Part shown: one piece after another, positions 1,838 to 59,778 of the stretch
Layout of the letters: every line of letters starts with the position of its first letter
Numbering within the stretch: the first letter of the stretch is position 1
Assembly (NCBI RefSeq): GCF_000182745.2
Contig: NC_016027.1
Span: forward strand, 1,952,001 to 2,016,000
DNA: 64,000 nt
Reading direction: 5' to 3'
Source of the DNA: Komagataeibacter medellinensis NBRC 3288
Lineage (GTDB): Bacteria > Pseudomonadota > Alphaproteobacteria > Acetobacterales > Acetobacteraceae
Made by a program: the position numbers and the translations under genes
The notes under the pieces: model-generated
The model's input: the letters and a program-made list of their open reading frames with translations, nothing else
The model's database searches: none
Told to the model about the DNA's origin: nothing

Positions 1838-1869
1838 AACGAAAAGAAGTTTTTGGTGCAGCTTTTTGA
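1838..1869 (+). repeat. Truncated copy (a) of the dispersed three-way-junction repeat
   Basis: Only the left outer arm and part of the first hairpin (AAGTTTTTGGTGCAGCTTTTTGA) are present, starting at the tyrC stop codon. The IS5-type element at 1870 abuts it, so the insertion appears to have removed or displaced the rest of this copy. Confidence 0.7.
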
Positions 1870-2347
1870 GGCCTGTTTGGAATCGGGTTTTCTAAAGGGC
1901 CGCAATGCGTTTCAAAGTTGAGATGGATCGCTTCATCCTGACCGATGCCCAATGGGCGAAAATGGAACCGCTATGCCTTGGCAAGAAGACGGATCGGGGA
2001 TGCAGCGGGAAGGATAATCGCCTCTTTATCGAAGCGGTCTTATGGATAGCGCGGACCGGTGGATTTCGAGGGAATTCTTGCTGACAAGGCGTTTGACGTC
2101 CACTGGATCGTGGACGCCCTACACGCGCAAGGCACCTGCGTGGTTATTCCCCAGCGCAAAAACCGCATCGACAGGCGCCCCTTCGATGGCGCCCTGTTCA
2201 AAGCACGCCATCTCATCAAGAACGTCTTCTGCAAGCTCAAGGAGTTCAGCCGCATCGCCATGCGAAGCGAGAAGACTGACAGATCATGCGCAGCCATGAT
2301 CTCTCTCGTTAGCGCAGTCATCAATTCAAGATAATTCCCAACAGGCC
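1870..2347 (+). mobile_element. IS5-family insertion sequence, internally deleted copy
   Basis: The element is bounded by imperfect terminal inverted repeats GGCCTGTTTGGAAT (1870-1883) and ATTCCCAACAGGCC (2334-2347). It is 478 bp long. Compared with the second copy at 21460-22117 it lacks 340 bp between two 8-bp direct repeats CGGACCGG, of which one copy remains at 2052-2059. Restoring the 340 bp gives about 818 bp, a normal length for the two-frame IS5 subgroup. No clear target duplication is seen. It cannot encode a functional transposase. Confidence 0.85.
1905..2334 (+). pseudogene. IS5-family transposase remnant with internal deletion
   Basis: The N-terminal part reads MRFKVEMDRFILTDAQWAKM and continues to VLWIARTG. 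After the deletion joint at 2052-2059 the frame changes. The C-terminal part (2059-2334) gives GILADKAFDVHWIVDALHAQ, then HLIKNVFCKLKEFSRIAMR, the IS5-family catalytic-domain end. The central catalytic segment is lost, so this is a dead gene. Confidence 0.85.
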
Positions 2348-2363
2348 CGGATAAATATTAAAG

Positions 2364-2448
2364 TAAACAGTTTCTGGGTGCCCCCTTTTTTCAAAAAGCG
2401 GCGTTCTTTCAAAGCTTTTTGAAAAAATCTTCACCAAAAACTTTTCTC
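2364..2448 (-). repeat. Copy (b) of the dispersed three-way-junction repeat, inverted orientation
   Basis: The outer arms are GTTTCTGGGTG and CACCAAAAACTTTTC. Between them are a G+C-containing hairpin (CCCCTTTTTTCAAAAAGCGG) and an AAGCTTTTT-type hairpin, in the reverse order to copies c and i. It sits between the IS remnant and the radA promoter region. Confidence 0.75.
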
Positions 2449-2517
2449 CGTTTGGCTAAGCGGCCGGTTGTTCCATATATGTGATATACACGATCTGTTC
2501 TTGTCCAAGGAGCCATC

Positions 2518-3924
2518 ATGGCGCGTCGGCCCGCTAACCGTTTTGTCTGTCAGTCCTGCGGGGCGGTGTTTTCCAAGTGGTCGGGCCGGTGCGATGCCTG
2601 TGGTGCGTGGAACAGTATTGTCGAGGAAACGGTCGAACCCACCGCAACCGGCGGTACCAATGCCCGCAGGCGCACCGGCGCGCGGATCAATCTTGTGGGC
2701 CTTGGCGGGGATACGCCGCCGCCACCACGCATTGAAACCTGTATCGGTGAACTTGATCGCGTACTGGGCGGTGGGCTTGTGCCAGCATCGGTCGTGCTGG
2801 TGGGGGGGGATCCTGGTATCGGCAAGTCCACGTTGCTACTGCAGGGTGCGTGTGCGCTGGCGCGTGCCGGGCGCAAGGTCATGTACATTTCGGGCGAGGA
2901 AGCGGTGGACCAGATCCGCCTGCGTGCCCGCAGGCTGGGGCTGGAAGCGCCCACGCTGGAACTCGCCGCCGCTATCAACGTGGCCGATATTGCCGCAACA
3001 CTGGATGCGGAAAAGGATCTGGCGCTGGTCGTGATCGACTCGATCCAGACCATGTGGATGGAAACGGTGGAAAGCGCACCCGGCACCGTAAGCCAGGTCC
3101 GCGCCTGTGCGTTTGAACTGATCCGCCTGGCCAAGCAGCGCGGCTTCAGCCTGATCCTTGTGGGCCACGTGACCAAGGAAGGCGCACTGGCAGGCCCGCG
3201 CGTGCTGGAACACATGGTTGATGCGGTCATGTATTTTGAAGGCGATCGCGGGCACCAGTTCCGTATCCTGCGCGCGGCCAAGAACCGCTTTGGCGCAACT
3301 GACGAAATCGGCGTGTTCGCCATGACCGATCAGGGGTTGGAGGAAGTGCCCAATCCTTCCGCCCTGTTCCTGGCCGAACGGCGCGGGCATATCGCGGGCT
3401 CTGCCGTGTTCGCGGGCATGGAGGGTACGCGCCCCGTGCTGCTGGAAGTGCAGGCCCTGCTTTCCCCCAAGGCAGGGGATGGCGGGGCGCGGCGTGCGGT
3501 CGTGGGGTGGGATACCGGGCGGCTGAACATGCTGCTGGCCGTGCTGGAAGCCCGCTGTGGCATCAAGCTCAACGCCATGGATGTCCATCTCAATATCGCA
3601 GGCGGCCTGCGCGTTGGGGAGCCTGCGGCCGACATGGCCGTGGCCGCGGCCCTTGTGTCCGCCGCAACCGGTCAGCCCACCAGTGCCGGTTCGGTCTATT
3701 TTGGCGAGGTTGGCCTGTCAGGCGAGATCCGTCAGGTCTCGCAACCTGATACACGGCTTAAGGAAGCCCACAAGCTGGGCTTCGAGCACGCTTTCCTGCC
3801 GCGTCGTATCGCACGCGGTAACCGTAAGCCCACGGCCCCGGACGGTCTGGGCATACAGGAAATCGGCCATCTGGGAGATCTTGTCAGCCTGTTCACGGCC
3901 GGAATGGAGGAGGCCGAGGCGTGA
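2518..3924 (+). CDS. radA: DNA repair protein RadA (Sms)
   Basis: A RecA-related ATPase that helps branch migration of recombination intermediates in the cytoplasm. The 468 residues show the full family order: a four-cysteine zinc finger (C11, C14, C25, C28), Walker A GGDPGIGKS at 96-104, the RadA-specific KNRFG motif at 255-259, and a C-terminal Lon-like domain. The ATG is preceded by AAGGAG at about seven bases, which fixes the start. Its stop overlaps the GTG start of the next gene, so the two are translated in tandem. Confidence 0.97.
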   Translation: MARRPANRFVCQSCGAVFSKWSGRCDACGAWNSIVEETVEPTATGGTNARRRTGARINLVGLGGDTPPPPRIETCIGELDRVLGGGLVPASVVLVGGDPGIGKSTLLLQGACALARAGRKVMYISGEEAVDQIRLRARRLGLEAPTLELAAAINVADIAATLDAEKDLALVVIDSIQTMWMETVESAPGTVSQVRACAFELIRLAKQRGFSLILVGHVTKEGALAGPRVLEHMVDAVMYFEGDRGHQFRILRAAKNRFGATDEIGVFAMTDQGLEEVPNPSALFLAERRGHIAGSAVFAGMEGTRPVLLEVQALLSPKAGDGGARRAVVGWDTGRLNMLLAVLEARCGIKLNAMDVHLNIAGGLRVGEPAADMAVAAALVSAATGQPTSAGSVYFGEVGLSGEIRQVSQPDTRLKEAHKLGFEHAFLPRRIARGNRKPTAPDGLGIQEIGHLGDLVSLFTAGMEEAEA

Positions 3925-4547
3925 GCGCGCCCGAACGCTTCATGCTGCGTGAACCCGTAATGCTGGAGCGCGACATAAAGAAAAGTATATTTCTGGCACA
4001 GGCAGCCCCCGTTTCCACCCCGACGGAAGCCATGGAATTCATAGCCTCCGTCAGCGATCCCGACGCCACCCATAACTGCTGGGCCTACCTGATCGGCCAG
4101 ACCTATCGCAGTGATGATGCGGGGGAACCCGGCGGCACGGCGGGCCGCCCCATCCTGCAGGTGATCGAGGGGCAGGGTTTCGACCGCACCGTAGTCGTGG
4201 TTACGCGGTGGTTTGGCGGCACCAAGCTGGGGGTGGGCGGTCTGGTGCGTGCCTATGGCGGCACGGCGGCGGAATGCCTGCGTACTGCCCCCCGCGTCCC
4301 GATCGTGGACATGGTGGATCTGACCTTTACCTGCGGTTTTTCCGAACATGCCCTGCTGCGTGCGCGGCTGGAAAGCATGGACTGCCAGATCGTGGGCGAG
4401 GATTTTGGTGCGGCAGGTGTCGGCATGCATGTTGCTCTGCCCACGATACGAGAGGCGGAGGTCCGCACCCGCATTACCGACATCACCCGTGGGCAGGCGG
4501 TAATCCGCGTGGTGGAAGAAGATGTAGGTCAGGGTGTTGGAGACTAA
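3921..4547 (+). CDS. YigZ/IMPACT family protein (UPF0029)
   Basis: A 208-residue protein with the family signature GTAGRPILQVIEG followed by VVVVTRWFGGTKLGVGGLVR. Relatives are linked to control of translation or to proteolysis, but the molecular role is unsettled. The GTG start at 3921 overlaps the radA stop codon, indicating translational coupling. The C-terminal part resembles the second, ferredoxin-like domain of the family. Confidence 0.9.
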   Translation: MSAPERFMLREPVMLERDIKKSIFLAQAAPVSTPTEAMEFIASVSDPDATHNCWAYLIGQTYRSDDAGEPGGTAGRPILQVIEGQGFDRTVVVVTRWFGGTKLGVGGLVRAYGGTAAECLRTAPRVPIVDMVDLTFTCGFSEHALLRARLESMDCQIVGEDFGAAGVGMHVALPTIREAEVRTRITDITRGQAVIRVVEEDVGQGVGD

Positions 4548-4606
4548 CGGCATTGTCGCTATGTCAGACAGCGTTTCACGTTCAGCATACGGAAAAAAGA
4601 CAAGCC

Positions 4607-4858
4607 ATGACCGATACCCCGCCGGACCGTCTGTCCGTCAATCCCGCCAGCGCCTTTTATAACGAGTCCCTGCTTGATCGCGGCATTGGCGTGCGCTTCA
4701 AGGGCGTTGAGAAAACCAATGTCGAGGAATACTGCATCAGCGAAGGCTGGGTGCGCCTGGCGGTGGGGCGTGCCACGGACCGCTTTGGCAACCCGATGAC
4801 CATGAAGGTCACAGGTCCGGTCGAGGTCTGGTTCAAGACCAGCGCAGAAAGCGAATAA
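4607..4858 (+). CDS. DUF3297 family small protein
   Basis: An 83-residue protein starting MTDTPPDRLSVNPASAFYNE and continuing through GVRFKGVEKTNVEEYCISEG, a pattern I recognise as DUF3297, a family common in proteobacteria and of unknown function. It has no signal peptide or membrane segment. It follows the YigZ gene after 59 bases on the same strand and is followed at once by repeat copy c and a strong terminator. Confidence 0.85.
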   Translation: MTDTPPDRLSVNPASAFYNESLLDRGIGVRFKGVEKTNVEEYCISEGWVRLAVGRATDRFGNPMTMKVTGPVEVWFKTSAESE

Positions 4859-4864
4859 AAGGAT

Positions 4865-4944
4865 AAAAGTTTTTGGTGAAGCTTTTTTCAAAAAGCTTTG
4901 AAAGAATACCGCCTTTTTGAAAAATGGCGGCACCCAAAAATTTT
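4865..4944 (+). repeat. Copy (c) of the dispersed three-way-junction repeat
   Basis: An almost complete copy. The outer arms are AAAAGTTTTTGGTG and CACCCAAAAATTTTT. Hairpin 1 is AAGCTTTTTTCAAAAAGCTT; hairpin 2 is CCGCCTTTTTGAAAAATGG. It starts seven bases after the DUF3297 stop, in the junction with the convergent hpnN. Confidence 0.85.
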
Positions 4945-4950
4945 TCCATG

Positions 4951-4986
4951 AAAAAAGGCCGCCCCCATCGGGATGCGGCCTTTTTT
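4951..4986. terminator. Bidirectional rho-independent terminator
   Basis: A perfect stem AAAAAAGGCCGC / GCGGCCTTTTTT closes a 12-base loop, giving U-runs in both directions. It sits between the convergent DUF3297 gene and hpnN and can end both transcripts. Confidence 0.88.
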
Positions 4987-5006
4987 GTCTTCCCTGTTAG
5001 GGGGCG

Positions 5007-7601
5007 TCATTCCTTGTCGATCGCGCGCTTGGGCAGCAGGGCGGGCACAAAGACCAGCGTCGCCACCAGCGTGCAGGCCAGCGAGAGCAGTAGCAGGCGG
5101 CCCATACTGGCTGTGCCCGGATGGTGCGATGCCGCCAGCGAGCCGAACGCCGTGCCCGTGGTCAGCGCCGAGAACAGCACCGCGCGCGCCGTCGGGCTGG
5201 ACAGCGGCGAGGTGATGCCCGCCCGCCAGTTCATGACGAAGTAGATGTTGAACGACACACCCACCCCCAGCAGCAGGGGGAGTGCGATGATGTTGGCGAA
5301 GTTCAGCTGCTCGGGCACCACGATGATCAGGATGACCGTCATCAGTGCCGAGAGCAGCAGGGGGGCAAGCACCAGCGCCGTATCAAGCAGCCTGCGCAGG
5401 GCGACGGCCAGAATGATGGCGATCATGACAATGGCCGCCGCCGCCGCCGTGACAAAGGCGTGCACCATTGTTGCGGCACTCTGCACGATGTCGATGGCGG
5501 AACCCGCGGCCATCGGGGCAATCTTCTGGATCTCGCTGACATAGATATGCAGCGCGTGGTTGCCCTTCATCTCTTTTGTCGGGTGCACCTCGACCAGCGC
5601 GCGACCGTCAGGCAGCAGGTAGTCCCGTGCCAGTTGCTGCGGCACGTCGGTAATGCTGACCGGCTTGACCTGCAACATGTCGCGCAGCATGTCGAGCTGC
5701 ATGGGCAGGAAGCGCACCAGTGCTTCATTGGTGGCCAGGATACGCTTGTCATCCGTCTGGGACAGATGGGCAAGGGCGGACTGGATACGCCGCAGCGGGT
5801 CGCCTGCGGGCAGCTTGTCCAGTACGCCGCCCAGTGCAGCCGCGGTCTTGGCGGCGGCGGCCTTCAGTTCGGCCGCATCCGGTGCCGGTTTGGGGTTAGG
5901 TACGATCAGGGTGGGCAGCATAATGCTGGCGGCATCCTGTATCAGCGGCAGCTTGGTCTTCTGGTCGGCCGGCACGAGGGAGCCGAGCCACAGCGCGTCA
6001 TGCACCATCGGCAGGGCGGAAACCTTGTCCGACATGGCGGCGGCCTGATCCAGGCCGGGCATCAGGATATCCACTGTATAGGGCGAATACTGTGGTTCGG
6101 ACATCAGCATGCCCAGCGTGACCATACCTTCGGATTTCGGGTTCTTGGTATGCAGCGGGTCGGCATCGAAGGTCAGGCGCGGCACCAGCGCCACGCCCAC
6201 CAGCGCAACCGCGACAAATGCCGCCAGTATGGGCTTGCGGTGGTGGCGGATGGCCTTATCCACCGGGCGTGCCCAGCCAAAGCCGATTGTGCCATGCCCC
6301 GCCGTGGGGCGGAACAGCCGCAGCAGGGCAGGCAGCAGCGTAAGCGTGCACAGGAATGCAAACACCATGCCAAAGCCCGCGATCAGCCCAAGTTGGGCCA
6401 CGCCGACAAAGGCGGTGGGCGTAAAGGCCAGGAAGCCCGCCGATGTCGCCATGGCGGCAACAAGAATCTGGTGGCCGGTCTCGTTACCTGTCTGCTCCAG
6501 CGCCTGCACAATGCCCGGCGCCGACCCGTCGGGCAGCGCCTGCGCGCGAAAGCGGACCGAAAACTGGATGGCAAAATCCACTGCGATACCAACGAACAGG
6601 ATGGCGAACGCCACTGAGATCAGGTTCAGCTTGCCCACCACAATGGCCGCGAAGCCCGTGGTCAGCAGCAGGCCCGAGACCAGTGTGATGATGATGGGCA
6701 CGATTACCCGCCACGTATGCACGGCAAGGACCAGCCACAACGAGACCAGAACCAGAGAGCCGAGCAGCCCTGCCACCATGCCCTCGGCCACGGTGGCGAA
6801 TTCCTCGTCCGCGATCTGGGTGTCACCCGTTATATGGACATGTGCCCGCCCGCTTTTGACAAAGGGCAGAGCATTGGCGGCTTCGCGGATCGCATCGGCC
6901 GCGGCACCGCCGGGCTGGAAGGAATCATAATCTAGCTTGGGCTGGGTCACGACAAACTGGAACTTGCCCCCAAGGTCGGCCAGATCTCCCGCCAGCAGCC
7001 GCTCCCACGAAAGGGGTTCGGGCGTGCTGGACACGGCATGCTCCAGCGTGGTGGCAAAACCGTCCAGCGCCGGGCGGAAGGGGCCAAGGTCGGCCTGCCC
7101 CTGGTTTATGCCCAGCGCGATCAGGTTCAGCGCATCGAACAGCCCACGCCCCGATGGGTCGGCGGCCAGTTCGCTCAGGAAGGGCTGAGCGGTGATGGTG
7201 GTGTTGAGCACGCGCTCCAGTGCCTTGGGGTCAAGGAACATCAGCCCGTTGCGCACAAGGTAGGGATCGGTCTGCGGTGTGGTGACGTAATTGAAATGGG
7301 TGTGGTCATCGCGCAGCCTTGCCGCCAGCGCCAGCGCGGTCTGCTGGGCTTCCTCGGGCAGGGCGGCGTCGATTACGGCAACAAGCTGGTCCTGCTTCTG
7401 GGGGAACAGGCGACCCATCTCTTCGGAGCGTTTCTTCCAGTCCAGCGAGGACGAGAACATCTGGTCCGTATCGGTTGTGACACCAAGCAGCGCATAGCTG
7501 GCATAGGTCGCCCCCGTGATCAGGAGCGCAAAGGCCACCACGACCGCAATGGCATGACGGGAACAGAAAGCGACAAGACGCCCAAGCGGTACCGATAGCA
7601 T
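5007..7601 (-). CDS. hpnN: Hopanoid transporter HpnN (RND/MMPL family)
   Basis: An 864-residue inner-membrane protein with the two-repeat layout of MMPL/RND exporters: one N-terminal helix, a large periplasmic domain, five or six helices (for example ILFVGIAVDFAIQFSVRFR), then the same pattern again, ending in helices around IALPLLLGVGVSFNIYFVMN. The overall sequence matches HpnN, which moves hopanoids to the outer membrane. Its neighbour at 7744-8754 is HpnL-like, which supports the hopanoid assignment. Squalene-hopene cyclase and other hpn enzymes are not in the window. Confidence 0.88.
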   Translation of the reverse strand: MLSVPLGRLVAFCSRHAIAVVVAFALLITGATYASYALLGVTTDTDQMFSSSLDWKKRSEEMGRLFPQKQDQLVAVIDAALPEEAQQTALALAARLRDDHTHFNYVTTPQTDPYLVRNGLMFLDPKALERVLNTTITAQPFLSELAADPSGRGLFDALNLIALGINQGQADLGPFRPALDGFATTLEHAVSSTPEPLSWERLLAGDLADLGGKFQFVVTQPKLDYDSFQPGGAAADAIREAANALPFVKSGRAHVHITGDTQIADEEFATVAEGMVAGLLGSLVLVSLWLVLAVHTWRVIVPIIITLVSGLLLTTGFAAIVVGKLNLISVAFAILFVGIAVDFAIQFSVRFRAQALPDGSAPGIVQALEQTGNETGHQILVAAMATSAGFLAFTPTAFVGVAQLGLIAGFGMVFAFLCTLTLLPALLRLFRPTAGHGTIGFGWARPVDKAIRHHRKPILAAFVAVALVGVALVPRLTFDADPLHTKNPKSEGMVTLGMLMSEPQYSPYTVDILMPGLDQAAAMSDKVSALPMVHDALWLGSLVPADQKTKLPLIQDAASIMLPTLIVPNPKPAPDAAELKAAAAKTAAALGGVLDKLPAGDPLRRIQSALAHLSQTDDKRILATNEALVRFLPMQLDMLRDMLQVKPVSITDVPQQLARDYLLPDGRALVEVHPTKEMKGNHALHIYVSEIQKIAPMAAGSAIDIVQSAATMVHAFVTAAAAAIVMIAIILAVALRRLLDTALVLAPLLLSALMTVILIIVVPEQLNFANIIALPLLLGVGVSFNIYFVMNWRAGITSPLSSPTARAVLFSALTTGTAFGSLAASHHPGTASMGRLLLLSLACTLVATLVFVPALLPKRAIDKE

Positions 7602-12343: not shown

Positions 12344-12356
12344 TGGCCATAGTTTC

Positions 12357-12511
12357 CGTTCTCTTTCATCCGGACTGTAACCGTCGGTTCCGGAATCACA
12401 CCGGATCTGCTTGACCCCGGCCCCAGAGGGGGCCGGGCGCTCGCGGACTTATGCCCCTTGCAAAAGGGTGCAATCACCGCCGGTGGGGAATTTCGCCCCG
12501 CCCTGAGAACG
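12357..12511 (-). ncRNA. FMN riboswitch (RFN element)
   Basis: The minus-strand RNA carries the conserved RFN blocks in order: GGCGAAATTCCCCACCGGCG near the 5' end, then a variable G+C-rich hairpin, then GATCCGGTGTGATTCCGGAA, CCGACGGTTACAGTCCGGAT and the closing GAAAGAGA. It is directly upstream of ribD. In known systems FMN binding switches off riboflavin genes. Confidence 0.95.
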
Positions 12512-12554
12512 CCTGCGAACCGGGCAGGTGCCCGATTCGTTTTTCAGTAAGACG

Positions 12555-21466: not shown

Positions 21467-22082
21467 GAGCGCCTGTCGAGGCGGTTTTTGCGCTGGGGAA
21501 TGACCACGCAGGCGCCTTGCGCGTGTAGGGCATCCACGATCCAGTGGACGTCAAACGCTTTGTCAGCAAGAATTCCCTCGGAATCCACCGGTCCGAGCAG
21601 GGGTGCAACGCCGACCGTGTCATAATGCTGGCCGGAGATGAGCGTAAAGCGGACCAGATTGCCCAGGGCATCGGTCATGGCGATGATCCTGGTCGACCAC
21701 CCTGTCACACTGCGTCCTGTCGCCTGGCTTTGGGGCACCCTTTTGCGCCCTGACCGTGGCGGTGAACCCGAATCACCGTGCTGTCGATCATCGCATAATC
21801 CATGTCGGCATCGTCAGAGACAGCTTCAGAAAGCCGTTTGAAAACACCGGCTTTCATCCAGTTACTGTAGCGGGAATAGACCGGGTTCCAATGTCCGAAA
21901 TACGTTGGCAGGTCCCGCCACGAACTGCCGGTCCGCGCTATCCATAAGACCGCTTCGATAAAGAGGCGATTATCCTTCCCGCTGCATCCCCGATCCGTCT
22001 TCTTGCCAAGGCATAGCGGTTCCATTTTCGCCTATTGGGCATCCGTCAGGATGAAGCGATCCATATCAATTTTGAAACGCAT
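21460..22082 (-). pseudogene. IS5-family transposase, nonsense-mutated and 3'-truncated
   Basis: The reading begins at ATG 22082. The codon that is TGG in the other copy (DAQWAKM) is TAG here, a nonsense change. The rest reads VLWIARTGSSWRDLPTYFGH, then DSTVIRVHRHGQGAKG. A frame change at a CAAAAGGG stretch gives a second frame (MTDALGNLVRFTLISG), as expected for IS5 members using -1 frameshifting. The C-terminal catalytic end is absent. Confidence 0.85.
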
Positions 22083-30330: not shown

Positions 30331-30387
30331 GTAAAAAAGTTTTTAGTGAAGCTTTTTTGGAAAAAGCCGACACTTAAAAACTTTTAT
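30331..30387 (+). repeat. Shortened copy (d) of the three-way-junction repeat
   Basis: Outer arms AAAAAGTTTTTAGTG and CACTTAAAAACTTTTA are present, but the two inner hairpins are merged into one (AAGCTTTTTTGGAAAAAGCC), so about 25 bases are missing compared with copy c. Confidence 0.75.
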
Positions 30388-30421
30388 CCTTTTTTCAGCA
30401 CATTCCCTGAACATGGTATGG

Positions 30422-30502: not shown

Positions 30503-31714
30503 ATGAGCGGGTCCAGCCTTCCCGAAAACATGCCCCCGCACGGACAGCCGGAACCGCCTGGCGGCCTTCTTTCGTGGATCGACCGCAGGCTGCCGGTCAT
30601 TACCGCGCTGCGAAAGGAATATGTCGATTTTCCCATGCCGCGTAACCTCAACGCGCTGTGGAATTTCGGGGCGATCCTAAGCGTGGTGCTGGTCATCATG
30701 CTGGCAAGCGGCATCTTCCTGGCCATGAGCTATACCCCCACCGCACAGGGCGCCTTCATGTCGATCGAGATGATCGAACGCCAGGTGTCTGGTGGCTGGA
30801 TGCTGCGCGCGCTGCATGTGACGGGGGCGAGCCTGTTCATGGCGGCCCTTTATATCCACCTCTTCCGCGGGCTGTATTATGGCTCCTACAAGCAGCCGCG
30901 CGAGATCCTGTGGCTGACCGGGCTTGTACTGCTGGTCATGGTCATGGTCACAGCCTTTGCGGGTTATGTGCTGCCATGGGGGCAGATGTCCTACTGGGGG
31001 GCGGATGTCGCGGGCAAGGCGGTCGGCGCCGTGCCGGTTATCGGGCCTGTGCTTGAACACATCATGGAAGGCAGCGACCAGTTGGGGGATATCTTCATCC
31101 ACCGCTTTTTCGTGCTGCACTTCGTCATGGCCTTCGCCATTGTGGGGATCGTAGTTCTGCATGTGGCAGCCCTGCATGTGAGCGGGCCGAACAATCCTAC
31201 CGGCCAGCCCGTACCTGCTCACGAGACGGTACCCTTCCATCCCTACTACACCACCAAGGACGTAACGGGCCTTGTGCTGTTCGCACTGGTATTCGCAGCC
31301 CTTGCCTTCCTGTGGCCTGACCTGCTGGCCGAGCCGGAAAATTACCGCCCCGCCAACCCCATGCACACACCCACCGATATTGAGCCGGAATGGTATTTCC
31401 TGCCCTTCTACGGGCTGCTGCAATCCGTACCCTCCAAGTTTGGCGGACTGCTGGCGGCGGGTGCATCGATCGGCGTGCTGTTCGTGGTACCGTGGCTGGA
31501 CCGCTCGCCCATACGTTCGGCCCGTGCGCGCCCGCTGTGCCGGGTGGGCATGGCGGCGGTTGTGATCTCGTTCGCGCTAATGGGACTGGTTGGCCGCCAC
31601 CATGCGCAAGGAGGCTGGATGATGGTGGGGCGCATCGCGGCGCTGTGCTATTTCGGCTACTTCCTTGTACTGCTGCCGTTATGCGCGCGGCGTGAGATGC
31701 ACCACGAACGATAA
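30503..31714 (+). CDS. petB: Cytochrome b subunit of a bc1-type complex, solitary
   Basis: A 403-residue cytochrome b with paired heme ligands H105/H119 and H206/H220, and the quinol-site motif PEWY at 295-298. Helices continue to the C-terminus, so it is a fused full-length (mitochondrial-type) cytochrome b. Normally the Rieske protein gene precedes it and cytochrome c1 follows; here a terminator and tRNA-Arg precede it and a repeat and thiamine-type gene follow. RBS AGGAA upstream of ATG. Confidence 0.93.
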   Translation: MSGSSLPENMPPHGQPEPPGGLLSWIDRRLPVITALRKEYVDFPMPRNLNALWNFGAILSVVLVIMLASGIFLAMSYTPTAQGAFMSIEMIERQVSGGWMLRALHVTGASLFMAALYIHLFRGLYYGSYKQPREILWLTGLVLLVMVMVTAFAGYVLPWGQMSYWGADVAGKAVGAVPVIGPVLEHIMEGSDQLGDIFIHRFFVLHFVMAFAIVGIVVLHVAALHVSGPNNPTGQPVPAHETVPFHPYYTTKDVTGLVLFALVFAALAFLWPDLLAEPENYRPANPMHTPTDIEPEWYFLPFYGLLQSVPSKFGGLLAAGASIGVLFVVPWLDRSPIRSARARPLCRVGMAAVVISFALMGLVGRHHAQGGWMMVGRIAALCYFGYFLVLLPLCARREMHHER

Positions 31715-31796
31715 AAGCTTCTGGTTACCGCCTTTTTTGAAAAGGCGGCGTTCTTCAAAGCTTTTTGAAAAAAGCTTCACCAAAAACTTCTTTATG
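31712..31796 (-). repeat. Copy (e) of the three-way-junction repeat, inverted orientation
   Basis: Starts at the cytochrome b stop codon. The arms are ATAAAAGCTTCTGGT and TTCACCAAAAACTTC, with hairpins ACCGCCTTTTTTGAAAAGGC and AAAGCTTTTTGAAAAAAGCT. A GTTTCAAACGGGC end-like motif follows at 31806. Confidence 0.75.
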
Positions 31797-31852
31797 TTTT
31801 GGTACTGTTTCAAACGGGCTTTACTTGACGGGTGCGGATCAGGCCCACACTT

Positions 31853-31935
31853 TCATCTGACCGGGGTGCCTACACCGTGTGGGCTGAGATCATACCCGTT
31901 GAACCTGATCTGGGTCATGCCAGCGAAGGGAGGCT
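31853..31935 (+). ncRNA. TPP riboswitch (THI element)
   Basis: The conserved aptamer blocks are in order: CCGGGGTGCC, then GGGCTGAGATCATACCCGTT, GAACCTGATCTGGGTCATGC and CAGCGAAGGGAG. It precedes the binding-protein gene at 32012. Thiamine pyrophosphate binding in such elements lowers expression. Confidence 0.96.
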
Positions 31936-31972
31936 GTTCCATATGACACGGAACCCGCACGCCTGCCACCTG

Positions 31973-32977: not shown

Positions 32978-32999
32978 GAGACTGCGGAGGAAGTCATTG

Positions 33000-33038
33000 G
33001 AAAGTTTTTGGTACAAGACGACACCCAAAAACTTTTAT
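33000..33038 (+). repeat. Minimal copy (f) of the three-way-junction repeat
   Basis: Only the outer arms remain (AAAGTTTTTGGT and ACACCCAAAAACTTTTA) with a short loop. A TTTCAAACAGCC end-like motif is at 33060-33071. Lies between the convergent thiY-type gene and DUF2721. Confidence 0.7.
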
Positions 33039-33073
33039 TGTTTTTCATCAATACGTTGATTTCAAACAGCCGT

Positions 33074-36277: not shown

Positions 36278-37366
36278 ATGCCCAACCCGCACCGCTGGCC
36301 CCTGCGTGTCGGACTTGTCGGGTACGGCTTTGCCGGGCGTATCTTCCATGCCCCCCTGATCCACGCCACACCGGGGCTGGAACTGGCGGCCATCTGTTCC
36401 AGCAGGCGTAGCGATGTGCTGGCGGAGTGGCCCCACCTGCCGGTTGTCAGCACGCCAGAGGCATTGTTTGCCCAGCCCGACCTGGATCTTGTCGTCATCG
36501 CCACACCCAACAGGACCCACGCCCCGCTGGCCACTGCCGCTCTGCGCACCGGGCTGCATGTAGTGGTGGACAAGCCGTTTACCCTGACCGTGGCACAGGC
36601 CCGCGAAGTCGCTGCGGTGGCACAGGCGCATGGACGCGTGCTATCCGTTTTCCAGAACCGGCGCTGGGACAGTGACTTCCTGGGGATCCGCCACCATATC
36701 CGCAGCGGAGTAATCGGTCGCGTGACCGAACTGGAATCCCGCATGGACCGCTTCCGCCCGCAGGTGCGCGCGCGCTGGCGGGAAACGGATGCACCGGGTA
36801 GCGGGCTGTGGTTCGACCTTGGCCCGCACATGGCCGACCAGGTGCTGCAACTGTTTGGTCTGCCCGACAGCATTCAGGCCAGCATGACCCAACAGCGCGA
36901 TCATGCCAGCGGCACGGACTGGGCACAGGTCATATTCTCATACGGGGCGCTGCGCGTCAGCCTGCATTGCAGCCTGCTGGCGGCATGGTCTGGCCCGCGT
37001 TTTATAGTGCATGGCACGCAGGGCTCCCTGCTCAAGCATCATGGTGACCAGCAAGAAAACCAGCTTCGTACCGGCCATCTACCCGGCGCATCTGGTTGGG
37101 GTCATGACCCGGATGACATCATGCTGTTCGATGGCACGGACAGGCCCCGCCCCCTGTCCGCCCCGCCGGGTGACTACCGGATCTATTACGCACTGGTGCG
37201 CGATGCGATCATGAAGCGTGGCCCCAATCCGGTGCCACCCATACAGGCCATTGCCCTTATGGCGGTACTGGAAACCGCCGTGGCCTCCAGCGAAGCTGGC
37301 AAGGCACTTTCCCTGCCCCTGACCGGGATGGAATGCCAGCAATGGGCGCAAAGCATTGATAAATAA
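36278..37366 (+). CDS. Gfo/Idh/MocA-family oxidoreductase
   Basis: A 362-residue NAD(P)-dependent oxidoreductase. The N-terminal Rossmann motif GLVGYGFAGRIFH is followed by VVIATPNRTHAPLA and VVDKPFTLT (the family EKP-like catalytic lysine site). The C-terminal half is the substrate domain (GSGLWFDLGPHMADQVLQLF). It probably acts on a sugar or polyol derivative. Stands alone; followed by repeat g. Confidence 0.9.
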   Translation: MPNPHRWPLRVGLVGYGFAGRIFHAPLIHATPGLELAAICSSRRSDVLAEWPHLPVVSTPEALFAQPDLDLVVIATPNRTHAPLATAALRTGLHVVVDKPFTLTVAQAREVAAVAQAHGRVLSVFQNRRWDSDFLGIRHHIRSGVIGRVTELESRMDRFRPQVRARWRETDAPGSGLWFDLGPHMADQVLQLFGLPDSIQASMTQQRDHASGTDWAQVIFSYGALRVSLHCSLLAAWSGPRFIVHGTQGSLLKHHGDQQENQLRTGHLPGASGWGHDPDDIMLFDGTDRPRPLSAPPGDYRIYYALVRDAIMKRGPNPVPPIQAIALMAVLETAVASSEAGKALSLPLTGMECQQWAQSIDK

Positions 37367-37369
37367 TAA

Positions 37370-37449
37370 AAAGTTTTTGGGTGCCGCCTTTTTTTAAAAG
37401 GCGGCGTTCTTTAAAGCTGCTTGAAAAAAGCTTCACCAGAAACTTCTTT
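37370..37449 (-). repeat. Copy (g) of the three-way-junction repeat, inverted orientation
   Basis: Outer arms AAAAGTTTTTGGGTG and CACCAGAAACTTC. Inner hairpins GCCGCCTTTTTTTAAAAGGC and AAAGCTGCTTGAAAAAAGCT. It fills the junction between two convergent genes, 36278-37366 and 37455-39122. Confidence 0.8.
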
Positions 37450-37454
37450 ACGGT

Positions 37455-39122
37455 TTAAGGCCCTGAGGGGCTGACCACGGCATACAGACCGATTTCCAGG
37501 TGCTTGCCGGTGGAGTAATTCAGCCCCTGCTCCTGCCCCAGTTCATGCACATCCAGCCCATCATGCAGGGCGCGGGCACCAAAGGTGGCCAGATCCTGTG
37601 CGCCCACCAGGGCCATGCCGCATTTCTGGTTCTGTTGCAGAAAATCGGCTGCCGCTGCCGCATTGACCAGCCGTGTATCCTGCCCCAGCAGGAACACAAG
37701 GCTGGGTTCCGAATCAGATGTGGATGCCACAATGGTCTGCGCGCAGGGCCGGTGTGCTGCCACAAGCCCCGCCAGCCGCGGGCTAAGCCATATCGTGTGC
37801 AGTTGCGGGATGACCGTAACGAATAACCCAACATGGATGATGACTGCCGCCGCCACCGCCGCCATGACCGCACGCAGCATGTCCCGGTGCAGAATCATGT
37901 ACCCCGCCATGACCAGCAACGGCAGGGCACCAGCCGGAATCAGCATCGCCGCCCACGGCACGATCCCCTCCATGCGCCACAGCAGCACCGGACCGGCAAA
38001 GGCCAGCACGGAGCCAACCGTAAACCAGACCAGACCATACGCCGCCAGCAAGCCACGCGCCCACAGGGCCCGGGGCCATTCCCAATTGGTGGGAAAGGAG
38101 ACGATCGCCGCTGCCGTCAGGATGGCAATGGCCGGATAGGTCGGCAGCACGTAATGCGGCAGTTTGGTCGCAATCGCCTCAAACACCAGCCAGTGCGGTA
38201 CGATCCAGCACAGCAGGTAGCGCACATGCGGCTGGAAACGCTGTGCCCAGATGAAGGGCAGGCTCATGGCCGCGAAAATCGATCCCGGCCAGAACGCAAT
38301 GGCAAAGACGCCCAGATGGTAGCCCGGCGGCAGGCCATGCGTTTCCTGTCCGCTCGCCACCTTACCCAGAAAGTTACGCCCCACCGCGCGAGAAAAGAAA
38401 TCGCCGTGGCTGATCACGCCAATGGCAATACACCACGGCAGCACGATCGCCAGCATGACCAGCCACCCCCATGCCGGGCGCAGGCGATGCCACCAGTCAA
38501 TCCGCCGCTCCACCAGCGCAAGCGCCAGCGGGGTGCCAAAACCGGGAATCAGCACGACCGGCCCCTTGAGCATGAGGCCACACCCCAGCGCTACCCAATA
38601 CAGCAGGGCAGCGGCAAGAGGGGTTGCAAGGTCGCGCTCCCGGTCCAGATAGGCACGCAGTAGCCCGCATTGTGCCAGCAGCACGGATAACAGTAGGGTC
38701 GTATCAATGGTGGCCATCCGCCCTTCCGCCGTCATCAGCACGGATACGGCCAGAAGGGCTGCGGCCAGAAGACCACAGGTCGGGCCGAACAGGGCGGCCC
38801 CGATCCATGCCGTCAGCACGGCAGCAACGGTAACGGCCAGAAGCGAGGGAATACGATAGGGCCAGGTGGCGTGCTGGTCCTGCATGCCGGTCAGGCGGAC
38901 AGCAGCCGCTTCCAGCCAGTAGATCCCGGCGGGCTGGAGATAACGCGGCTGGTCAAGGAACCGGACATCAACATAGTTGCCGCTATGCAGCATCTGGGCC
39001 GTGGCTTCCATATAGCGCGGTTCATCACGGTCCAATGGCGGCAGCGATGCACGGCCCGGCAGGAACAGGACAAACACGGACAGCGCCACAAATATGTAGT
39101 GGCGCAGTGTCAGGCGCGTCAT
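37455..39122 (-). CDS. ArnT-like GT39 family glycosyltransferase
   Basis: A 555-residue membrane protein with about 11-12 helices. The first periplasmic loop contains LDRDEPRYMEA with the catalytic-type Asp-Glu pair of PMT/ArnT enzymes, which use polyprenyl-phosphate sugars to modify lipid A or proteins. The C-terminal 150 residues form a soluble periplasmic domain. The GT2 gene 12 bases upstream could make the donor lipid. Confidence 0.85.
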   Translation of the reverse strand: MTRLTLRHYIFVALSVFVLFLPGRASLPPLDRDEPRYMEATAQMLHSGNYVDVRFLDQPRYLQPAGIYWLEAAAVRLTGMQDQHATWPYRIPSLLAVTVAAVLTAWIGAALFGPTCGLLAAALLAVSVLMTAEGRMATIDTTLLLSVLLAQCGLLRAYLDRERDLATPLAAALLYWVALGCGLMLKGPVVLIPGFGTPLALALVERRIDWWHRLRPAWGWLVMLAIVLPWCIAIGVISHGDFFSRAVGRNFLGKVASGQETHGLPPGYHLGVFAIAFWPGSIFAAMSLPFIWAQRFQPHVRYLLCWIVPHWLVFEAIATKLPHYVLPTYPAIAILTAAAIVSFPTNWEWPRALWARGLLAAYGLVWFTVGSVLAFAGPVLLWRMEGIVPWAAMLIPAGALPLLVMAGYMILHRDMLRAVMAAVAAAVIIHVGLFVTVIPQLHTIWLSPRLAGLVAAHRPCAQTIVASTSDSEPSLVFLLGQDTRLVNAAAAADFLQQNQKCGMALVGAQDLATFGARALHDGLDVHELGQEQGLNYSTGKHLEIGLYAVVSPSGP

Positions 39123-54183: not shown

Positions 54184-54185
54184 GT

Positions 54186-56395: not shown

Positions 56396-56471
56396 GGGGC
56401 CATAGCTCAGTTGGGAGAGCGCCTGAATGGCATTCAGGAGGTCAGGGGTTCGACTCCCCTTGGCTCCACCA
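56396..56471 (+). tRNA. tRNA-Ala (anticodon GGC)
   Basis: A 76-base cloverleaf: acceptor GGGGCCA / TGGCTCC, anticodon loop ATGGCAT with anticodon GGC, T loop TTCGACT, encoded CCA at 56469-56471. About 100 bases after maf. Confidence 0.96.
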
Positions 56472-56560
56472 GATTCCTCATCTGGTACCCCCTAAATCAA
56501 TATAAACTGCATACAGATTTTCTATCATGGTTGGTGTATTTTCATCACGCCTTGAAAGTT

Positions 56561-56653
56561 GTCTGAAAAGTATAAGAAAGTTTATGGCGAAGCTTTTTTC
56601 AAAAAGCTTCGAAAAATGTCGTGTTTCTTATCAATGGGTTGTTTCAAACAGTC
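56561..56653 (+). repeat. Copy (h) of the dispersed repeat with outer inverted ends
   Basis: A perfect hairpin GAAGCTTTTTTCAAAAAGCTTC-type core sits inside arms AAGAAAGTTTATGG and CGTGTTTCTTA, with outer end motifs GTCTGAAAAG and GTTTCAAACAGTC. The G+C hairpin is missing. Confidence 0.7.
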
Positions 56654-56712
56654 TCTTAATGGGTTTGTAACGCCTGCCCGCTAAAAGCTGCATTCCAGAG
56701 TAATGAAACGAA

Positions 56713-56744
56713 AACCGCGCTGGCCCGTTAAGGGCAGCGCGGTT
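56713..56744 (-). terminator. Strong hairpin with U-run on the minus strand
   Basis: AACCGCGCTG pairs with CAGCGCGGTT; with inner CCC/GGG pairs the stem is nearly 14 bp. On the minus strand it is followed by TTTTCGTTT. Read that way it would stop a transcript running antisense to the RmlC-like gene. Confidence 0.55.
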
Positions 56745-56777
56745 GCGGGGCAACCTGAATGCAGATCCATGTAAGGT

Positions 56778-57455
56778 ATGAACGCCTGCCTATCGGTAAT
56801 GGCCAGGCCCCGATTGTTCGGTGCCGATATGCCTGAGCACGGGCCTCTTCCTTCCCTTTTCCCACCTGTTGCGCCATCCGTATCAGCTGAAGATGGCGTG
56901 GTGTTTCGTTCCCTGCCGATCGAAGGTCCACTCCTGCTGGCCCCTGCGGCCCGCAATGGGCAGGTCAGCCGCCGCGCGGCCTGCGCGGCCCTTGTTCACG
57001 AGGGCATTGCCCTGAGCGAACATTTCATGCGTAGCGACCGGACCGAGCGGTATGACCGGCATGTCGTGCGCGGACTGTATTGTCAGGTACCGCCCCATGC
57101 GCAGGGCCGTCTCATGCAGTGCAGCCAGGGGGCTGTATGGGTGGTAGGCGTGGATGTGCGGACGGGTTCACCCAGCTTCGGGCAATGGGCGGGCGTTACC
57201 CTGAGTGCCGAAAATGCCTGCCAGTTCTGGCTTCCTCCCGGCTTCCTGCATGGTCTGTGTAGCCTGGCTGATGATACGGAGGTCAGGCACCGAGACACCC
57301 GGCCAGAGACGGCGGTATGTGCACGCACCATACGCTGGAATGACGAGACACTGGGCATTGAATGGCCGGTCAGGGATCATCAGGCCATCCTTTTGCAACC
57401 CGATGACCATGCCCCTTCCTTTGCCAATGTCATTGACTGGTTTCTTTACGGATGA
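56778..57455 (+). CDS. RmlC-like (dTDP-sugar epimerase family) protein
   Basis: A 225-residue cupin of the dTDP-4-dehydrorhamnose 3,5-epimerase family: VVGVDVRTGSPSFGQWAGV, LPPGFLHGL and IRWNDETLGIEWP. The catalytic histidine of RGLHYQ is replaced by tyrosine (RGLYCQ, Y101), so ordinary epimerase chemistry is doubtful. No rfbA, rfbB or rfbD is nearby. ATG 56778 is used but ATG 56799 and 56829 are alternatives. Confidence 0.75.
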   Translation: MNACLSVMARPRLFGADMPEHGPLPSLFPPVAPSVSAEDGVVFRSLPIEGPLLLAPAARNGQVSRRAACAALVHEGIALSEHFMRSDRTERYDRHVVRGLYCQVPPHAQGRLMQCSQGAVWVVGVDVRTGSPSFGQWAGVTLSAENACQFWLPPGFLHGLCSLADDTEVRHRDTRPETAVCARTIRWNDETLGIEWPVRDHQAILLQPDDHAPSFANVIDWFLYG

Positions 57456-57471
57456 CGGCATGCCCGTCCGC

Positions 57472-58905
57472 TCAGGTGGAATGATCGAGTTCATCCAGTT
57501 CGATCAGTCCGGCCTCGCCGGTCTGGGGAGGGGGAATGACGGGCATGGCATGTTCCGTGGCCCGGTCGCCCGGATGCAGCCTGCGCACCACGGTAAAGGC
57601 GGTCATGACCGCGCAGGAGCCGAACAGCACGCTTCCCAGCACCTGGCCTACCTGCACCCCTCCGGGGCCGAATTTCATGCCGAACCAGACAAAGGGTATG
57701 GTCCCCAGTGTGGCCCGCCCCCAGTTAAACAGGGCAGAATAAAGCGGAAAGCCCAGATTGTTGAAGGCGGCATTGGCCACGAACAGCATGCCGATAAAGA
57801 CATAACCCGCAATCGTCCAGTTGCAGAACAGGTGGATCAGCATGGCGGCGGTGCCCTGCGCGGAAAAGGCCCGGATCACCATGTCCTGAGTCAGGAACAG
57901 GATGGCCCATGTCAGCGCGACACACCCTGCCACCAGCCATAGCGAGGCCACCAGTGTTGCCCGCACCCGCTCCAGCCTGCCCGCGCCAAGGTTCTGGGAC
58001 ATGATGGGACCGACCGATCCCGTCAGTGCAAACACGAGCGCGAAGGCCACTGGCACGATTCGCTCAATGGTGGCCTGCCCCGCTATGGCCGCAAGTCCGA
58101 ACCCTGCCATGGCGTGGGTGACGAATATGCTGCTGACCGGTGTGGCCAGGTTGGTCAGGATGGCAGGCATGGCCACCTGCCCCACCAGCTTCGTGTCGGT
58201 CAGCACATGCGTGCGGATGGGCCATGCCAGCAGGCCGTGCTGGCGGGCGCGGTGAAAGCCCATGAAGGCCACGAACCCGCGTGAAAACAGGGTGCTGATT
58301 GCCGCTCCCTCAAGCCCCAGTCCCAGCCCTATGATCAGCAGCGGGTCCAGTATGGCCGAAATCAGTGCACCCAGCAGCGTGACATTCATGGAAATGCGGG
58401 CAGCCCCTATGGCACGCAGCAGGCCCGAGCACCCCATGCCCGCCGCGATCAGCGGCAGGCCGGGCGATATGATCTCGAGAAAGGTGGCGGCCTGGCGCGC
58501 GGCTTCCCCGCCTGCGCCAAGCAGCGTCAGGATGGAGGTGGCCAACCACGCCGTGATCAGGCCGATCAGCAGGCAGAGCACCATCATGACAATACCGAAC
58601 GAGGACGCGACGCGCCGTGCCTGCTCGATCCGACCCGCGCCGATCAGCCTACCGCTGATGGCCCCTATCCCGATCGACAGCCCGATGGAGACGGCGATCT
58701 GCACATAACTCACCACGCCCGAAAAGCCGATCGCCGCCGTAAGGGCCGGATTGCCCAGCCATGCAATGTAGAAAAGGTTCAGCAGGTCGACCACGAACAC
58801 GGCCATGAGGCCGATGGCCCCGGTTCCTGCCATCACCACGACATGACGTAAGATACTGCCCGTGCAGAATTTGGCCTGAGGTCGTGGTGCGGGTTCTGCC
58901 CCCAT
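57472..58905 (-). CDS. MATE-family efflux transporter
   Basis: A 477-residue protein with 12 helices in two similar halves; the N-terminal half has DLLNLFYIAWLGNPALTAAI and the second VGPIMSQNLGAGRLERVRAT. Sodium- or proton-driven export of cationic compounds is expected. ATG 58905 is preceded by AGGA at eight bases. Confidence 0.9.
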   Translation of the reverse strand: MGAEPAPRPQAKFCTGSILRHVVVMAGTGAIGLMAVFVVDLLNLFYIAWLGNPALTAAIGFSGVVSYVQIAVSIGLSIGIGAISGRLIGAGRIEQARRVASSFGIVMMVLCLLIGLITAWLATSILTLLGAGGEAARQAATFLEIISPGLPLIAAGMGCSGLLRAIGAARISMNVTLLGALISAILDPLLIIGLGLGLEGAAISTLFSRGFVAFMGFHRARQHGLLAWPIRTHVLTDTKLVGQVAMPAILTNLATPVSSIFVTHAMAGFGLAAIAGQATIERIVPVAFALVFALTGSVGPIMSQNLGAGRLERVRATLVASLWLVAGCVALTWAILFLTQDMVIRAFSAQGTAAMLIHLFCNWTIAGYVFIGMLFVANAAFNNLGFPLYSALFNWGRATLGTIPFVWFGMKFGPGGVQVGQVLGSVLFGSCAVMTAFTVVRRLHPGDRATEHAMPVIPPPQTGEAGLIELDELDHST

Positions 58906-59060
58906 TAGGGTGTCCTGTCTGCTGGGCGTTCGTGAGCTTTTTGCCAGTGTGGCGCCGATATGATGCGGGGCAATGAAATCCGGCACAAGGCCCCAGCCTG
59001 CACCGTTTTTTGTGCGATGGCAGGAAAGTGGCGCGTTGTTCTTTATATATTAACCGCACA

Positions 59061-59102
59061 TTGTGCACTGCAAAATAACAGGAAGAATTGTGCAGTGCAA
59101 AA
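59061..59102. promoter_or_regulatory. Tandem operator-like sites
   Basis: TTGTGCACTGCAAAA (59061-59075) and TTGTGCAGTGCAAAA (59088-59102) are 14/15 identical, 27 bases apart, and each has GCA/TGC symmetry. They lie upstream of the promoter at 59136, a position suited to a regulator. Confidence 0.5.
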
Positions 59103-59135
59103 AAAGTAAAATCGTGTTTTTATTTATATTTATTG

Positions 59136-59166
59136 TTGACCTGTTAAAATAATTCTGCCATATAGA
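59136..59166 (+). promoter_or_regulatory. Putative promoter for the candidate small RNA
   Basis: TTGACC at 59136-59141 matches a -35 box. TATAGA at 59161-59166 (19-base gap) or CATATA at 59159 (17-base gap) can serve as -10. The start would be near 59172. Confidence 0.55.
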
Positions 59167-59171
59167 ATTAC

Positions 59172-59297
59172 ACGAGGCCAGCAGGCTTCCATAAATACCA
59201 AAAATATCCGGTAAGAATACCGGGTTGGATGCTGTGCATAGATGCGTCAGTGTCCCACTGACAGGGTCTTCCTTTATTGGGAGGCCCTGTTTTTTTG
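59172..59297 (+). ncRNA. Candidate structured small RNA
   Basis: About 126 bases with four successive stem-loops and no credible ORF: GAGGCC/GGCTTC (59174-59189), CCGGTA/TACCGG with AGAA loop (59208-59223), TCAGTG/CACTGA (59247-59261), and a 12-bp terminator stem (59261-59290) followed by seven T. I do not recognise it as a known RNA family. It could instead be an attenuated leader for the gene at 59418. Confidence 0.6.
59261..59296 (+). terminator. Rho-independent terminator
   Basis: ACAGGGTCTTCC pairs with GGGAGGCCCTGT (two G-U pairs) across the TTTATT loop, followed by TTTTTTT. A strong intrinsic terminator on the plus strand. Confidence 0.88.
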
Positions 59298-59417
59298 CGT
59301 ATGGCATAAGTAATGGGGAGCCATCCGTCTTTTACGCATCTGGTGCGTTCCGGCTTTCACTACGCTGTGGCGTGCTGGCGACCTGCTGGCACCATTTTTG
59401 TGTAGGGAGCCATACCC

Positions 59418-59621
59418 ATGTCCAGACTGACTGCCGCCGAACGCAATGCTCTGCCTGATTCCGCCTTCGCCCTGCCCGGTCGGCGTTACCCCATACCCGA
59501 TGTGACTCATGCACGCGATGCCCTGGCCCGCGCCAGCGAAATGCTGCATCGCGGTGACCTGACACAGGAAGAATACGATACGGTCGTGGCCCGCGCCCAT
59601 GCCGTGCTGGAAAATGAATAG
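59418..59621 (+). CDS. Small conserved protein (DUF6582-like)
   Basis: A 67-residue protein: TAAERNALPDSAFALPGRRY, then PIPDVTHARDALARASEM. The NALPDSAFA...YPI motif is widespread in small bacterial and phage-related proteins of unknown function. ATG 59418 is preceded by TAGGGAG at ten bases. Confidence 0.75.
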   Translation: MSRLTAAERNALPDSAFALPGRRYPIPDVTHARDALARASEMLHRGDLTQEEYDTVVARAHAVLENE

Positions 59622-59632
59622 TCACGCATAAA

Positions 59633-59665
59633 AAAAGGGATGCGGACCTGCGCCCGCACTCCCTT
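59633..59665. terminator. Bidirectional terminator
   Basis: AAAAGGGA-TGCGG pairs with CCGCACTCCCTTTT with one bulge, just after the 59418-59621 gene, with U-rich ends in both directions. Confidence 0.7.
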
Positions 59666-59667
59666 TT

Positions 59668-59778
59668 GAGGCTGTTTGAAAAGCCTGTAATCGTAAAAAG
59701 TTTTTGGTGAAGCTTTTTTCAAAAAGCTTCAGGGAACACCGCCTTTTTGAAAAAAAGGCGGCACCCAAAAACTTTTAT
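59668..59778 (+). repeat. Copy (i) of the dispersed repeat, most complete
   Basis: Outer end GAGGCTGTTTGAAAA (59668-59682), then arms AAAAAGTTTTTGGTG and CACCCAAAAACTTTTA around hairpins AAGCTTTTTTCAAAAAGCTT and CCGCCTTTTTGAAAAAAAGG. Lies between the convergent 59418-59621 gene and etfA. Confidence 0.85.

Follow-up and report, generated by a model that had tools for sequence, protein, structure and literature searches.

A dispersed three-way-junction repeat was analysed in a 64,000-nucleotide stretch of Komagataeibacter medellinensis NBRC 3288 (hereafter the window; G000:C3:1952001-2016000, 62% G+C) and in the genome it comes from (3.51 Mb, 8 contigs; hereafter the own genome). The core of the repeat, about 87–100 bp long, consists of an A-tract, an outer arm, an A/T hairpin, a G+C hairpin, a second outer arm and a T-tract, in that order. 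This core is very probably the inside of a ~160-bp non-autonomous miniature inverted-repeat transposable element (MITE) of the IS5 type. Judged from its placement, from the retention of the core with its A- and T-tracts and from its symmetry, there is about an even chance that the MITE core is kept as an orientation-independent, bidirectional 3′-end element.

A sequence-only reading of the window had listed nine copies (a to i), and these were confirmed far above chance, with the corrections given below. The left-arm 13-mer had 13 matches in the window (≤2 mismatches; 0.55 expected) and the right-arm 15-mer had 11 (≤3 mismatches; 0.58 expected). The five full copies b, c, e, g and i served to build a covariance model, which also detected h (E 1.8e-9), d (2.9e-8) and f (1.4e-5); the half copy a was absent from its matches in the window. 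With 150 of 745 first-look candidates scored, the own genome gave at least 147 model matches at E≤1, with one place appearing on each strand. Genome-wide rarity is excluded by the 144 distinct copies recovered there, 115 of them with the full core. The listed matches were all on contig C3 (3.14 of 3.51 Mb); the remaining 0.38 Mb held none of the 147 matches listed, against ~16 expected by length.

Acetic acid bacteria often carry more than 100 copies per genome. All 18 other genomes of the genus had at least 34 matches each, the highest counts being at least 74. Matches were found in 1 of 17 genomes from other genera of the family (4 matches) and in 0 of 24 genomes from other families. An exact 32-mer occurred, among 80 loci listed, in Komagataeibacter, Novacetimonas, Gluconacetobacter entanii, Acetobacter and Gluconobacter. 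Seventeen named genomes, picked because the 32-mer was present, were counted at E≤1e-4: at least 150 copies in A. musti, 140 in A. garciniae, 48 in Acetobacter sp. UBA5411 and 2 in A. orleanensis; 6–8 in three Gluconobacter; 135 to at least 150 in three Novacetimonas; at least 150 in G. entanii; and 72 to at least 150 in six Komagataeibacter. The full unit had matches in six plasmid records and the core in five, every one from Komagataeibacter or Novacetimonas. A phage origin was ruled out by the absence of any match to the repeat in a phage collection.

Transposon ends and core-only copies

Complete units were mostly 159–164 bp long, with terminal inverted repeats of the GAGRCTGTTTGAAAA type and TNA target duplications. 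In a young subfamily of the own genome, the core stood between GAGGCTGTTTGAAAA and TTTTCAAACAATCTC, and four complete copies measured 159–161 bp. Among the retrieved loci, 33 end pairs lay 110–230 bp apart with ≤3 mismatches per end. The core motif was inside 31 of these 33 pairs (a lax test with a short motif), and an exact 3-bp duplication was present in 16, all TNA. When only pairs with ≤1 mismatch per end were taken, 12 of 16 had an exact duplication, all TNA.

A relative, G005, had 63 exact end motifs vs 5 in the own genome. Exact duplications flanked 18 of 25 full units retrieved from it (17 TNA and one TTG); some of these units are also in the set of 33 pairs, and one chance overlapping pair in L387 was removed from the G005 counts. 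More than 30 copies in G005 shared 90–98% identity along the whole unit or most of it (L372-L391), likely the result of a recent burst. Full MITEs flanked by TTA duplications were found on plasmids of K. nataicola and N. hansenii (L362 3000-3161 and L363 3001-3162, respectively).

The ends and the TNA target fit IS1031-type IS5 elements: the motif GAGnCTGTTTGrAA together with a TNA target is what we take to be characteristic of that group. DUF4096 transposase matches numbered 82 in three genomes and 47 in the own genome. The earlier suggestion that the repeat may be mobile is strongly supported by the full units with inverted repeats, the TNA duplications, the near-identical copies in G005, the plasmids and the pattern of presence and absence. 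This pattern was clear at many orthologous sites; the flanks were too diverged to show an exact empty site with one TNA. Mobility at a TA target (IS630-like), read from the TAAAAG...CTTTTA edges, was dropped because ~160-bp units with TNA duplications appeared.

The two MITE-bearing plasmids were typed as conjugative, and the K. nataicola MITE abuts the 3′ end of an aldo/keto reductase gene. Another locus (L272 1500-2336) has an IS5-type insertion sequence (IS) directly beside a MITE end, with repeat-like sequence on the opposite side of the IS.

We checked conservation position by position over 114 full-core copies of the own genome. In most copies it extended beyond the core by ~5 bp on the left (AAAAC) and by ~9 bp on the right (TTTTTTATC). 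A clear transposon end was recognised on the left in 6 and on the right in 5 of the 114, with perhaps a dozen more weak remnants; in ~108 the ends were not clearly recognisable. Because only ~6 of the 114 have clear ends, it seems that the core has lasted longer than the transposon. The shared edge sequence and the scattered end remnants suggest that core-only copies are trimmed MITEs. The alternative is a separately moving core.

Placement at gene ends and a possible 3′-end role

Gene calls were our own codon-model calls and were not curated, and the background was the window plus 60 own-genome stretches chosen around copies. Copy f was missed by the detector, and its junction was counted as element-free in the placement and terminator counts.

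The 144 copies of the own genome were mainly convergent (92), followed by tandem (47) and divergent (3), and 2 overlapped an open reading frame (ORF). Element-free intergenic space predicts 22.7, 79.6 and 39.7, respectively (n=142; p=9e-39, 4e-8 and 3e-16). With stop-proximal space only, 36% would be expected to be convergent, and 92 of 139 were. In the stretches chosen around copies, a copy was present in 76 of 112 junctions of the convergent type, in 37 of 359 of the tandem type and in 2 of 82 of the divergent type; in the window, 4 of 9 convergent junctions were occupied (copy f added by hand). Stop codons within 150 bp of a copy (n=218) were concentrated at the core edge: 139 lay at 0–34 nt from it and 154 at −5 to 34 nt, and the density dropped sharply beyond 34 nt. 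Eighteen stops lay inside the element edge (own-genome set), 13 of them TAA. At tandem sites, the orientation relative to the gene was the same in 23 copies and opposite in 24.

A T-rich stretch (≥8 T in the 16 nt from the arm end) was present in 89 of 115 full copies on the + strand and in 82 of 115 on the − strand, the two strands being tallied separately and without a null. It follows the A/T-rich outer stem and not directly the G+C-rich stem. We propose that RNA from either side would fold into a branched hairpin followed by a U-rich tail. The folded hairpin would stop transcription or halt trimming by 3′ exonucleases, and convergent genes would be kept from reading into each other. Copies landing upstream of genes would be lost because they block expression. 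The near-symmetry of the unit would let the core turn round at its site with its function kept.

Covariation was assessed on the 115 full copies aligned without structure (29 of the 144, being truncated, were excluded) against 300 shuffles. A model-fitted alignment was set aside, as it contains reverse-strand matches. Paired cells made up 88.5% of 3433 (shuffle mean 87.4, maximum 88.0), and two-sided changes numbered 59 (mean 31, maximum 52). Both inner hairpins were above the shuffles, the G+C hairpin with 28 two-sided changes (11.8, maximum 23) and the A/T hairpin with 14 (5.8, maximum 13). With the partners slid one column, pairing was ~65%, and there were 60 and 31 two-sided changes. The support from covariation is modest because related copies share changes. 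Between orthologues, the core diverged by 0.107 within and 0.112 between clades, and the flanks by 0.129 and 0.194 (shuffled flanks 0.31).

Several results weigh against a selected 3′-end role. The outer stem had no excess over the shuffles (17 two-sided changes vs 13.5, maximum 40), and one-sided pair breaks were common (395 of 3433 cells). Wobble pairs showed no preference on the transcribed strand (49 vs 44 in 31 tandem copies), and there was no one-sided (3′-sided) T-tract; selection acting through either was rejected, as neither signal was found. The earlier claim of selection on structure has limited support: compensatory (two-sided) changes are modestly over the shuffles in the two hairpins and the core stays at ~11% while the flanks diverge, but the outer stem and the wobble pairs add nothing. 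Within clades, the core and the next 40 bp diverged similarly in two of three clades (0.102/0.099, 0.145/0.151 and 0.094/0.140). Copies that decayed below the detection limit are uncounted, which favours apparent retention.

A terminator or mRNA-stability element, as the sequence-only reading had it, fits the placement. Simple scans were run on two copies, i and g, and called no intrinsic terminator in either core. Ordinary terminators were not depleted beside the element: they were present in 30 of 92 convergent junctions with a copy vs 6 of 31 without (the 31 include the junction of copy f), and other terminators were present in 9 of 45 tandem junctions with a copy vs 19 of 253 without. A simple replacement of ordinary terminators was therefore rejected. 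No other recognised terminator was present in 62 of 92 convergent junctions with a copy and in 25 of 31 without.

Finally, the young G005 MITEs were already placed in a similar way (12 convergent, 13 tandem and 0 divergent; n=25). With none of them divergent, the avoidance of promoters dates from insertion itself or shortly afterwards, and a large part of the placement may be due to a preference at insertion or to early purging. Their median distance from edge to stop, measured by hand, was ~48 bp at convergent sites (nearer stop) and 231 bp at tandem sites vs 9 and 22 bp for own-genome cores. Given the greater distance in G005, the core may come to reach the stop codon through trimming at a later stage. 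The 13 full units from other genomes comprised 5 convergent, 4 tandem and 1 divergent, with 1 ORF overlap and 2 at contig ends.

The copies could be neutral MITE debris: insertion into A+T-rich intergenic DNA, purging of insertions near promoters or in genes, and tolerance of a functionless remainder near gene ends. The apparent core conservation would then come from detection by likeness and continual re-seeding of the family. The intergenic G005 MITEs with none of 25 divergent, the single divergent unit and single ORF overlap among the 13, the missing RNA-strand signals, the similar rates of change of the core and its neighbouring DNA within two of three clades and the ordinary terminators left in place all agree with this. 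It accounts poorly for 92 of 139 convergent copies where 36% are expected in stop-proximal space, for a whole core in 115 of 144 copies while the ends are unclear in ~108 of 114, and for flanks that diverge further between clades when the core does not. On balance, we regard neutral debris as rather unlikely.

Positive supercoil collects at convergent genes, and the palindrome might act there as DNA, by extruding as a cruciform or by binding a nucleoid protein or gyrase, as proposed for repetitive extragenic palindromes (REP) and bacterial interspersed mosaic elements (BIME). The convergent bias, the strand symmetry at tandem sites (23:24), the tolerance of both orientations and the lack of an RNA-strand signal suit such a role. 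A T-tract at the edge and the proximity to stop codons fit an RNA 3′-end element better, and a DNA-level element appears improbable. For REPs, a supercoiling role is hypothesised in one paper (PMC3733652).

Orientation at orthologous sites

Syntenic stretches of 18 relatives were compared, and presence and absence of copies varied among them. Copies below 45 bits were left out of the orthologue divergence and orientation counts. G002, G003 and G012 lack copy i and have a terminator-type hairpin in its place, the one in G002 showing no clear T-run by eye; a hairpin of this kind is also retained in the window, followed by copy i. Copy f was missing in G001, G002, G011, G012 and G013. One site was filled in 14 genomes, in a single orientation throughout.

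Of the 16 orthologous sites that have two or more full copies, 7 showed both orientations, and the site of copy c is one of them. At this site, the core of G003 was inverted with respect to G015, G008 and G018: the left flank and arm were 95–98% identical, the right 78–80% and the inverted core 95–96%. Between copy c of the window and G002, the flanks were 83% and 88% identical and the inverted core 91%. Other flipped pairs had poorer flanks, down to ~30% on one side. For the best sites, in-place inversion would be the simplest reading of these alignments. The identity of the flipped cores was not accepted as proof of it, as the best non-orthologous copies were closer in three of four comparisons. 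Because the cores are so alike, conversion or replacement by another copy could also produce the flips.

More generally, ectopic gene conversion or template switching might keep the cores alike, the flips being conversions from an oppositely oriented copy. This could give the same plateau of core divergence near 11%, and it agrees both with flipped orthologues being no closer than the best non-orthologous copies in those three comparisons and with the greater divergence of flipped pairs (0.146) than of same-orientation pairs (0.110) within clades. Same-orientation orthologues (mean 0.105–0.110) were, however, closer than non-orthologous copies (0.160), so homogenisation is incomplete; the placement is also left unexplained. 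We consider conversion quite improbable as the general explanation.

Returning to a retained 3′-end element, its broadest form is that a MITE-spread, trimmed core has become lineage-wide two-way punctuation at a large share of convergent junctions, an orientation-free terminator or 3′ cap that flips between its own arms without loss of function. This form is tentative and somewhat on the unlikely side. If true, bacteria that make cellulose and vinegar would owe much of their transcription punctuation to a transposon, and the family would offer a case of bacterial mobile-element domestication with more than 100 replicate loci per genome, ready insulators that work both ways for use in engineering such hosts, and a means of studying in bacteria how sequence flips between short inverted arms. 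Should the core turn out to have no function, a name for the family would still do away with a large source of intergenic sequence misread as "structured RNA" in Acetobacteraceae.

Window copies and known systems

The positions of the copies and of adjoining features are collected in the table. That c, f, g and i lie in convergent junctions and that both orientations occur was borne out. Other details of the earlier description needed correction. Some full copies fold as a three-way junction, but b, and c on the + strand, fold as one long imperfect hairpin. Not every copy is close behind a gene end: b trails an IS remnant, and d and h trail tRNA genes (by ~64 and ~102 bp). Copy a is present from ~1842, but as a left half only, cut by a degenerate IS from ~1869, and the start given for copy i (59668) is the first base of the transposon end, ~26 bp outside the arm. 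ORF 30503-31714 takes its TAA stop (window 31712-31714) from the arm of copy e. Fold z-scores against shuffles on the two strands were −5.6/−6.8 for i, −5.2/−1.9 for e, −3.7/−3.8 for c and −4.6/−3.6 for g.

Table. Repeat copies and adjoining features in the window (window coordinates)
Feature	Position	Strand	Remarks
Copy a: left arm and start of A/T hairpin	1842..1868	+	Truncated by IS
Degenerate IS5/DUF4096-type IS remnant between a and b	1869..2347 (ends approximate, by eye)	.	Partial DUF4096 match at 1938-2060 (G000:C3:1953938-1954060)
Copy b: full core	2362..2449	-	92.4 bits; after IS remnant
Copy c: full core	4861..4949	+	96.1 bits; convergent junction; opposite orientation at same site in G002, G003, G005
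Ordinary intrinsic-terminator-like hairpin adjoining copy c	4951..4986	.	Junction 4858-5007 scored with another terminator-like hairpin
Copy d: single inner hairpin remaining	30331..30389	+	33.0 bits; past tRNA-Arg
Copy e: full core	31709..31795	-	102.5 bits; between ORF 30503-31714 and thiamine pyrophosphate (TPP) riboswitch
TPP riboswitch downstream of copy e	31852-31948	+	Leads next gene
Copy f: arms only, without both inner hairpins	32996..33040	+	25.1 bits; convergent; then transposon-end remnant (TTTCAAACAGCC)
Copy g: full core	37365..37451	-	102.3 bits; occupies entire convergent gap 37366 to 37455
Copy h: A/T hairpin intact, G+C hairpin and right arm degraded	56572..56647	+	36.5 bits
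Transposon terminal inverted repeat GAGACTGTTTGAAA adjoining copy h	56642..56655 (G000:C3:2008642-2008655)	-	
Ordinary terminator-like hairpin	59641..59658	+	Element-free relatives also have hairpin here
Transposon terminal inverted repeat GAGGCTGTTTGAAAA, left end of copy i	59668..59682 (G000:C3:2011668-2011682)	+	
Copy i: full core	59692..59780	+	100.9 bits; convergent junction; in G013, missing from G002, G003, G012

An Rfam search of the window gave five matches, none of them at the nine copies; copy i had sub-threshold matches only. A known Rfam RNA was ruled out, there being no match above the gathering score at any copy. The window also contains a flavin mononucleotide (FMN) riboswitch (12354-12514, − strand, 110.5 bits) and a second IS remnant, a DUF4096 (IS5-type) transposase match with one internal stop (21831-22049, − strand; G000:C3:1973831-1974049).

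A full-text literature search returned no description of the repeat by title or abstract start, with subscription journals mostly outside its coverage. With IS1031-group elements (IS5 family) of Acetobacter and Komagataeibacter, the repeat shares the end motif and the TNA duplication that we take to mark that group. Unlike them, the unit is far too short, its ~160 bp ruling out a transposase gene inside. No IS with exactly matching ends was found among 30 loci scanned, where only L347 and L349 had similar end pairs; L349 is an IS with similar ends and a TAA duplication.

Bacterial MITEs listed in one paper are NEMIS, RUP, ERIC, Bcr1, Nezha and EFAR (PMC3733652). Such elements measure 70–300 bp and have terminal inverted repeats, target duplications, many intergenic copies and the potential for transcribed hairpins, all as in the present family. 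Here, by contrast, the abundant form is an end-less three-way-junction core, in both orientations at conserved sites.

REP and BIME are likewise high-copy palindromes past gene ends, mostly in convergent and unidirectional junctions according to that source (PMC3733652). REPs are 20–40 bp long with a GTAG or CGTC tag, whereas the present repeat measures 87–100 bp and has MITE ends; by eye, its consensus, with the edges AAAAC and TTTTTTATC, contains neither tag. CGTC repeats are reported there as missing from Acetobacteraceae (PMC3733652). Membership of REP was rejected, the tag being absent and the size wrong.

The resemblance to bidirectional intrinsic terminators lies in an A-tract, hairpin and T-tract that read alike from both sides and stand mostly 0–34 nt past stop codons. 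It ends at the stem adjoining the T-tract, which is A/T-rich and branched, and at the scans of two copies, which call none.

In chloroplasts, hairpin-associated small inversions in intergenic DNA likewise leave the sequence between short inverted arms in both orientations with conserved flanks. Unlike those, the present flips concern a bacterial repeat with dispersed copies. The location of MITEs and REPs at gene ends was already known; the present family differs in a core that stands without transposon ends and in both orientations at conserved sites.

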